64,000 nt of DNA from an uncultured Desulfovibrio sp. (GTDB lineage Bacteria; Desulfobacterota; Desulfovibrionia; Desulfovibrionales; Desulfovibrionaceae): the NCBI GenBank assembly GCA_913063155.1, contig CAJXYU010000002.1:124001-188000 (forward strand), given 5' to 3'. Under the pieces are notes generated by a model that did no database searches, had not been told where the DNA came from, and saw only the letters and a list, made by a program, of their open reading frames with translations. The position numbers and the translations under genes are program-made. The first letter of the stretch is position 1. Each line of letters opens with the position of its first letter. This document shows, piece after piece, positions 1 through 1,775 of this stretch.

Positions 1-253
1 TGCCCTTGAGCCATGTCTGTATGATGTAGGCCGCGCATCCCACACCCGGTGTTACGGCGATGGCCCCGGTGGGGCAGTTCATGGTGCAGGCCCCGCATTC
101 CATGCAGCCGTCCAGATCCATGATCTCGGCTTTTTTGCCGTTCAAGTGCACGACCCGCTGCGGGCAGACCGTTACGCACATGCCGCAGCCGACGCAGGCG
201 TCCTTGTTCAGCCGCAGGGTGGCAACTTTGTCGAGATACCGAAAGTCCTTCAT
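1..253 (-). CDS. hgcB: HgcB, 2[4Fe-4S] ferredoxin of mercury methylation (3' end cut by window)
   Basis: HgcB supplies electrons to HgcA to reduce its corrinoid cofactor during Hg(II) methylation. The first 84 codons are visible; the C-terminus, which in known HgcB ends in a Cys pair, lies outside the window. Two cluster motifs are seen: CVGCGMCVTVC (Cys 20, 23, 26, 30) and CMECGACTMNC (Cys 50, 53, 56, 60), the second being the signature that separates HgcB from ordinary ferredoxins. An extra Cys falls at position 73, matching the functionally studied Cys73 of strain ND132. The ATG overlaps the hgcA stop (ATGA) and is preceded by GGGAGG, so translation is probably coupled to hgcA. Confidence 0.95.
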   Translation of the reverse strand, partial: MKDFRYLDKVATLRLNKDACVGCGMCVTVCPQRVVHLNGKKAEIMDLDGCMECGACTMNCPTGAIAVTPGVGCAAYIIQTWLKG

Positions 254-1446
254 GCCGCACCTCCCGTAAATCCAGAGCCGATCCACAGGGCCAGCGCCGC
301 GAGGGCCGCCAACGCCTGAGCCGGAATGCCCCGGCGCATTTCCTTTTCCACCCCGGACGGTGAAGTATATGGGGTGGACCCCGTGAAGTTCATGGCCAGA
401 TAGGAGCTCGCCGCTGTGGCGAACAGCGTTGCCGCAACAATGCCTGATGTCCCGATGACGTTTGAAAAGGAGAGGGAGACGGCCAGGCTTAGAGGCAGAC
501 CCGTGACGATGCCTTTGATCCAGAACTGGCGGCCGGGCAACCAGGGCAGGAGGATGGGGGTGAGACAGGCTCCGGCGAAGATGCCGGCTCCGCCCGCGGC
601 CAGCGCCGCGGCTCCCCTGCTCCAGGCCGCTGCAAAGGAAAATATTCCGGGCCCTATGCCGGAGAGCGCAAATATGATCGCCGATACTATGAAAATGTAT
701 TTGCGCAGAATCCAGAATTCGACCGGGACGAGCACTGCGCGTTCCCTGAGAGTGAAGGTGACCGACCGCATGGTTTCGTCAGCTTTGTAGCCGGATTTGA
801 TGAAGCTCTTGAGGTCCGAGGCGCGCACCGGGCTGTATATGGCTTTGAAGTCGCAGAGATTGTTCAGCTTGTGGGCTGCAATGCCGGTGGCCGCCAACTG
901 GGGGACGATGACCTGTCGGTGGCTGACGATGTCGGCCAGTTGTGTGAGCAGGATGCGGCGGGCGAGTTCTTCCGTGGAGAAAAGTTGTTTTCCTGCCGCG
1001 CACCAAACGTTGATGCCCCGCGTGTCGAGGATGAGCAGCCAGGCGTCCAGCCCGTTCATTTCCTTGCGGACAATGTCGAAGGTCAGTTTGTAATTGGCCG
1101 TGGCCACCACGGGGGATTCGGGCGTCGGACTACCCACGCAATAGAGTCCGGGCGTCACTTTGTAGTTGTTGCGAGTGATCCCCAAGCGGGCCCGAAACGT
1201 GCCGAATCGGTCGCGCCAGGATAGTTTGGTGTGCACACGCGGTACGGCCCCGGCAGGCGTCTCCACAAAGTCTTTCACGTAATGGCGGATGGTGTATCCG
1301 GCTCGTTCGAAGATCCCGGACTCGGGATCGGGCTTCGGGCCTCAACAGACCCCCTCTTCAAGGGGCTTCGATTCCGGTATGACGTGTCGCGTGGAGCAGG
1401 AGCAATCCTGTGGTTGCAGCATCGGGGCCATTTTCAGTTCCTTCAT
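250..1446 (-). CDS. hgcA: HgcA, corrinoid-dependent mercury methyltransferase; frame contains one in-frame TGA (possible selenocysteine)
   Basis: HgcA transfers a methyl group from its corrinoid to Hg(II). A cytosolic corrinoid-binding domain with the cap-helix motif NVWCAAGK is followed by a membrane domain of about five helices. From the GTG at 1278 the protein is 342 aa and the cobalt-coordinating Cys is residue 93, the number used for ND132 HgcA; but no Shine-Dalgarno precedes that GTG. The ATG at 1446 has GGAGG four bases upstream and overlaps the arsR stop (ATGA). From there the frame is 398 codons, interrupted only by TGA at 1344-1342 (codon 35) right after a Cys codon, and a SECIS-like hairpin follows. 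HgcA identity is certain; selenocysteine insertion is an inference. Alternatives are GTG initiation or a nonsense mutation. Confidence 0.93.
1308..1344 (-). promoter_or_regulatory. Candidate UGA codon plus bacterial SECIS-like stem-loop within hgcA
   Basis: On the minus strand the TGA (1344-1342) is followed after 18 bases by an apical loop GAGTCC (1323-1318) closed by a perfect 6-bp stem GATCCC/GGGATC (1329-1324 with 1317-1312). A lower stem CGAA/TTCG (1337-1334 with 1311-1308) pairs after a 4-base bulge. Spacing of 16-37 bases, a loop of 3-14 bases with G among its first two positions, and a stem of at least 4 bp are the published criteria for bacterial SECIS elements, and all are met. SelB recognition cannot be shown from sequence alone; the codons for PDPESGI could produce this palindrome by chance. 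Confidence 0.55.
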
Positions 1447-1775
1447 TGTTCCTCCAATAGTGTTTCAACCATGTCGTGGAAACGTTTGAGAACGTTTTTG
1501 TCCACGCAGTAGCAACTCTTCGGACCATCCACCTCGCCCTGGATCAGACCGGACCGGCGCAGAATTTTGAGGTGCTGGCTCACCGTGGATTGGGCCAGGG
1601 GCATGACCTCGACTATTTGTCCGCAGACGCAGCGGTCCATTCTTATGAGATGCTGGAGGATCTGGACACGGGCCGGGTGCCCGAGTGCTTTGCACAAGGT
1701 GGCGAATTCCTCATTGCCGGAAGTGTTTCGCGGCGCAGCTTTGGCAGGCGGACAGCAGTGTTTTTGTTTCATCAT
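1443..1775 (-). CDS. ArsR/SmtB-family metalloregulator of the hgcAB operon
   Basis: A winged-helix repressor of 110 aa from the ATG at 1775. It contains ALGHPARVQILQHL, the recognition region STVSQHLKILRRSGLI and a wing ending in CYCVDK. Cys-rich sites typical of metal or metalloid sensing are visible: HCCPP near the N-terminus and CVCGQIVEV before the recognition helix. A longer frame back to a TTG at 1835 is open but would run through the promoter and operator. The gene is first in an arsR-hgcA-hgcB unit with ATGA overlaps at both junctions. An ArsR-like gene next to hgcA is known in Pseudodesulfovibrio methylators. The ligand is not deducible from sequence; As(III), Hg(II) and others are possible. 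Confidence 0.9.
   Translation of the reverse strand: MMKQKHCCPPAKAAPRNTSGNEEFATLCKALGHPARVQILQHLIRMDRCVCGQIVEVMPLAQSTVSQHLKILRRSGLIQGEVDGPKSCYCVDKNVLKRFHDMVETLLEEQ

Follow-up and report, generated by a model that had tools for sequence, protein, structure and literature searches.

A UGA codon most probably read as selenocysteine in the hgcA gene of an uncultured Desulfovibrio sp.

Described selenocysteine forms and the hgcA locus

Selenocysteine (Sec) has been reported for both HgcA and its partner HgcB. In a table of a 2026 review (PMC13188914), as far as its accessible text goes, HgcA is listed with the motif CU and HgcB with the motif GVGU, both with reference to Haft & Gwadz 2023, and Sec in HgcA is mentioned in the accessible text of a 2024 PNAS paper (PMC11588087). 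The terms searched for were absent from the main text of the 2008 ocean-sampling paper that the review cites for HgcA. An earlier note on the DNA analysed here had claimed that no report of a selenocysteine HgcA was known; the review and the PNAS paper contradict this. Judging from these portions, Sec-containing HgcA is already in print, and the present locus is a further member and not a new kind. Biochemical results are also available. According to the accessible part of PMC7305189, Cys73 of HgcB is essential, the loss of both C-terminal cysteines lowers activity by 95%, and a comparison with MerA is drawn. In the accessible part of PMC11588087, a 37-kDa recombinant HgcA of strain ND132 was active in E. 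coli lysates.

The stretch of DNA that was analysed (64,000 nucleotides, "the window") contains the following features:

1443..1775, minus strand: gene for an ArsR/SmtB-type metalloregulator, immediately 5' of hgcA (NF033788, 70.2 bits, cut-off 55)
250..1446, minus strand: full hgcA frame, 398 residues with Sec35 and the cap-helix Cys149 (NF040863, 430.2 bits, cut-off 275)
1279..1446, minus strand: 56-residue tail at the N-terminus, containing Cys-Sec-Gly-Pro-Lys-Pro (translation and AlphaFold2 model)
1342..1344, minus strand: in-frame UGA, most probably a selenocysteine codon, behind the Cys codon 1347-1345 (frame and relatives)
1312..1329, minus strand: SECIS-like hairpin, 7-bp stem 1329-1323/1318-1312, loop 1322-1319 (folding against shuffles)
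1..253, minus strand: hgcB, which extends 35 bases past the window edge (NF040864, 122 bits, cut-off 99)

The genes arsR, hgcA and hgcB follow one another on the minus strand, each overlapping the next. The hgcA ATG (1446-1444) overlaps the arsR stop as ATGA (1446-1443) and is preceded by GGAGG, as had been claimed, the distance to GGAGG being 4 bases, and the hgcB ATG (253-251) overlaps the hgcA stop codon TGA (252-250). It was also verified that the frame is open down to 250 with a single internal terminator, TGA 1344-1342, which directly follows a TGT (Cys) codon. The product of 398 residues would begin MKELK and contain EEGVC-U-GPKPDPESG. Its assignment to HgcA is based on the NF040863 match above the cut-off, the cap helix NVWCAAGK, a five-helix membrane domain and the adjoining hgcB, which has Cys instead of Sec at GVG[C/U]. 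The NCBIfam model NF040863 matches residues 68-393 only, and the tail lies outside the curated model. An alternative start, GTG 1278, would yield an ORF of 342 codons, in which Cys149 of the full protein becomes Cys93. The sequence 5' of this GTG contains nothing resembling a Shine-Dalgarno motif, in agreement with the earlier note. A pseudogene, a frameshift and a sequencing error were ruled out, as the identical UGA and frame were found again in relatives.

Evidence for recoding of the UGA

The column of the UGA was read in two sets of loci. For the first set 288 family genomes were searched, of which 57 had a match, and 55 of these were obtained in whole or in part, and G242 as a fragment. 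It also comprised the best 80 of 288 relatives, a sampling that leans towards sequences near the query. In each locus the reading frame 5' of the HgcA core was examined, and 127 of 137 loci were distinct and usable; excluded were three loci cut upstream, one with an N run, one fragment and five with duplicate DNA. Among the 127 usable loci, drawn in part from the best 80 of 288 relatives, the column was occupied by UGA in 68, by Cys in 48 and by another residue in 11, while UAA or UAG occurred in none of them. Cys directly preceded the UGA in 67 of the 68 UGA-type loci, and a Cys-Cys pair replaced Cys-Sec in 40 of the 127. The column is thus conserved as Cys or UGA, and the earlier proposal that Sec stands in a Cys position of HgcA is strongly supported by the UGA/Cys exchange together with the hairpin and the Sec machinery described below. 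Within the genus of the window, all 20 scorable hgcA genes (22 in total) had the UGA. Over the 20 codons 3' of the UGA the third codon positions were the most variable in the 68 loci (entropy 1.53 versus 0.93 and 0.80 at the other two), indicating that coding constraint persists beyond the UGA. P37 and G50 were invariant in 54 aligned full-length HgcA proteins; residue 35 was invariant as well, by selection, because the set had been chosen as UGA-type.

The second set was drawn evenly over the phylum. From 395 genomes, 118 exceeded the HgcA cut-off, and 108 of these were read and gave 110 HgcA loci; left out were G000 and G033-G035, which had already been collected, and G304, G324, G364, G416, G429 and G514, which had truncated matches. 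The two sets overlap to some extent, as L241/L054 and L242/L064 look alike. In-frame UGAs clustered 15-19 codons before the HgcA core, where 42 were counted, versus 0-4 in every other 5-codon bin within 35 codons, and this pile-up is beyond chance. Four of 49 UGAs were discarded as stray (L213, L214, L225 and L255), a judgement made on context and prior to the selA search; the genomes of L225 and L255 were then found to be devoid of selA. The other 45 of the 110 loci had an accepted Sec-like site, located exactly 18 codons before the core in 34 cases and at 15-19 codons in 41. The residue before Sec was not Cys in nine of the 45 sites. In five loci (L184, L186, L191, L199, L228) it was G or T, and in four of them (L186, L191, L199, L228) a Cys follows the Sec, forming a reversed U-C pair. 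The scoring rule found neither UGA nor CC in 27 of the 110 loci, a rough number, because some core starts were extrapolated and one site (L193) was missed. Given these 27 loci, a Cys-Sec or Cys-Cys pair seems not to be needed in every HgcA.

The putative SECIS element was assessed by comparing single-sequence folding energies with those of synonymous-codon shuffles. In the window the stem GATCCCG/CGGGATC (7 bp) encloses the loop AGTC, and its energy was reached by none of 500 shuffles (z -3.2). The earlier note had placed a stem-loop 18 bases after the UGA; the hairpin is indeed present, and the spacing from UGA to loop turned out to be 19 bases. In the first set 38 of the 68 UGA genes were at or under the 5% level (mean z -2.09), and five of 38 Cys-Cys genes were (mean z -0.37), two of the 40 Cys-Cys loci having not been placed in the comparison. 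In the phylum sample the hairpin reached this level in 34 of 45 loci (mean z -2.54), and control windows shifted by -60, +60 and +120 bases did so in 0, 4 and 3 of 45, respectively. One stem position has both partners at second codon positions; here 62 of the 68 loci show C-G and four show T-A. When the longer stretch 3-48 was folded, the signal was weak (8/68 loci, mean z -0.60), and RNAalifold returned no consensus structure on the ungapped set.

The genome of the window was searched for the Sec machinery, and selA (607.6 bits), selB (393.7 bits), selC and selD (323.4 bits) were all found. The tRNA-Sec scored 76.9 bits (gathering cut-off 47) and was called tRNA-SeC with the anticodon tca by ARAGORN. 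The model is not specific by itself, as it exceeded the cut-off in five of 14 controls, and a second match above the cut-off in the same genome was a tRNA-Trp. The selD gene (G000:C1:501474-502400) carries an in-frame TGA of its own, and the selenophosphate synthetase of this genome is probably a selenoprotein itself. Among the family genomes with the UGA, selB was above the cut-off in 35 of 37, one of which (G278) was judged by E-value only; the two others are 82% and 67% complete. In the phylum sample selA was present in 103 of 108 genomes and in all 45 with an accepted site. The five genomes without selA contain none of the 45 sites (Fisher p 0.07), an association that is weak because nearly every sampled genome has selA.

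Further Sec positions and the partner HgcB

The position of the Sec codon was found to vary. In the seven genomes of the genus g23 the column that usually holds the UGA has Cys or is lost. Six of these genomes (L122, L125, L128, L132, L134, L136) have a C-UGA-PP[KR] motif 53-82 codons before the core, not 16-23, and a hairpin at or under the 5% level was found at four of these six sites, the other two having values of 0.06 and 0.09. The seventh genome (L139) has no UGA in its tail, which contains seven CC pairs in a Pro-rich sequence. A similar far-upstream site occurs in L137, outside the six g23 loci. A far-upstream C-UGA-PP was also seen in L193, which belongs to another family of the phylum and was overlooked by the scoring rule.

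The neighbouring hgcB genes could be scored in 122 of the 127 loci, and HgcB had Sec at GVG[C/U] in 17 of them. The loci with GVGU are L069, L083, L085-L087, L090, L091, L093, L094, L099-L102, L104, L105, L109 and L111. None of the 17 HgcB-Sec loci had a UGA in the hgcA column. The 122 pairs divide into 64 with HgcA-Sec and HgcB-Cys, 17 with HgcB-Sec and no HgcA-Sec and 41 with neither, and none of the 122 combines both (Fisher 7.7e-7). Of the 64 HgcB-Cys calls, 44 were made by script and 20, with GCGC for GVGC, were read by eye as Cys. On the tree, four and two changes suffice, the absence of HgcA-Sec beside HgcB-Sec depending on about two, and an independent-pairs test was not significant (p 1). 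In the phylum sample HgcB had Cys in all 106 pairs scored of 110, with no HgcB-Sec among them, and this sample therefore provides no further test of the exclusion. The apparent mutual exclusion of HgcA-Sec and HgcB-Sec, with few independent origins, is regarded as a lead from the sequence comparison. It is tempting to speculate, although we consider it doubtful, that each HgcAB has one relocatable Sec as key mercury ligand, never two at once, placed either close to the corrinoid domain of HgcA (16-23 codons before the core), on an extended tail of HgcA (53-82 codons before the core, as in g23 and one further genome), or at Cys73 of HgcB; if so, all three positions would serve one transfer step. 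Neither the far-upstream site nor the alternation between HgcA and HgcB was found mentioned in the accessible portions of the literature on Sec HgcA and HgcB, which is no proof of their being unreported, and the variation in Sec position may be new.

Possible function of the tail and comparison with known proteins

The UGA/Cys exchange, the hairpin and the Sec machinery strongly support Sec in the HgcA of the window, which is very probably a selenoprotein with UGA 1344-1342 read as Sec. SelB with Sec-tRNA would bind the hairpin that directly follows the UGA, and the codon would be decoded as selenocysteine. The resulting HgcA would carry its Cys-Sec pair before the corrinoid domain, on a 56-residue N-terminal tail that is flexible in at least its first 20 residues. 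In the AlphaFold2 model (mean pLDDT 89.8 over 398 residues) the pLDDT was 45-47 at residues 1-20, which are probably disordered, and 66 at residues 31-40 around Sec35. The closest PDB matches of the model were 9a0b, the published HgcAB model, and CFeSP. As a soft ligand of high affinity, the Cys-Sec pair could capture Hg(II), or alternatively take it from thiols or from the Cys-Cys tail of HgcB, and could then present it to the corrinoid or take the product off the corrinoid. Such a role in mercury handling is the somewhat favoured function, because 40 of 127 loci have Cys-Cys where the others may have Cys-Sec, because the UGA-free tail of L139 has seven CC pairs, because HgcB has its own Cys pair that is required for full activity (PMC7305189, accessible part), and because an ArsR gene lies immediately upstream. 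A flexible tail that bears a Cys-Sec pair would suit a mercury relay with HgcB. For the explanation as a whole, a Sec-containing HgcA whose tail pair most likely serves as a mercury ligand, we estimate a probability of roughly 0.85.

It is very improbable that the UGA is a true stop, which would end a leader peptide of 34 residues and leave HgcA to start at or close to GTG 1278, in line with the published numbering. The published C93 is indeed residue 93, the cap-helix Cys, of the GTG-started ORF of the window, and the 37-kDa recombinant HgcA was active in lysates (PMC11588087, accessible part). However, none of the 68 terminators in the column is UAA or UAG, Cys exchanges with UGA, coding constraint is found 3' of it, the hairpin is selected beyond coding need, and GTG 1278 has no ribosome site. 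The computed mass of the window HgcA is 42.9 kDa in full and 36.6 kDa without the tail. Since the published numbering begins 3' of the UGA and the tail-less mass is 36.6 kDa, the ND132 construct was, as far as the accessible text goes, probably devoid of the tail. As this presumably tail-less protein was active in lysates, the tail is probably dispensable for the chemistry itself.

Two other readings accept Sec and assign it another role. Cys-Sec pairs are known as redox motifs, and a selenenylsulfide could reduce or protect the corrinoid or Cys93 with no binding of mercury. The nine of 45 sites without a preceding Cys lend no support to a strict two-ligand Hg site, and none to a redox pair of Cys and Sec. 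The multiplied Cys pairs in the UGA-free tail of L139 argue against a redox function, and both HgcB and the regulator encoded upstream suit metal handling; we regard the redox role as unlikely. It is still less likely that the main effect is regulatory, with ribosomes halting at the UGA under low selenium, and HgcA and methylmercury tracking selenium. The UGA lies near the gene start, 5' of the entire catalytic domain, which fits this reading, but the Cys exchange in the UGA column and the Cys-rich tails would be left unexplained.

The Cys-Sec tail would couple methylmercury formation to the cellular selenium supply, and biochemistry with short-form HgcA may overlook a mercury-capture step. 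The large subunit of CFeSP (CODH/ACS) shares the corrinoid domain with HgcA by sequence and fold, the match being confined to that domain, and it is not known to have the membrane domain of HgcA. In the described Sec form of HgcB (NF040864, GVGU) the partner protein carries the Sec at GVG[C/U], where the hgcB of the window has Cys. The described Sec form of HgcA (NF040863), compared via the table in the accessible text of PMC13188914, belongs to the same family and has the same CU motif as the protein of the window. The genus of the window includes Pseudodesulfovibrio records (L012/L043, L010/L040 and L015/L044 are identical over the compared DNA), and on this basis Pseudodesulfovibrio mercurii ND132 (PMC7305189, PMC11588087, accessible parts) is judged to belong to it. 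HgcA of this genus, as annotated and cloned, is probably without the conserved Cys-Sec tail: the published numbering of ND132 HgcA, as far as seen in these accessible parts, starts 3' of the UGA, whereas the frame of the window starts 5' of it.
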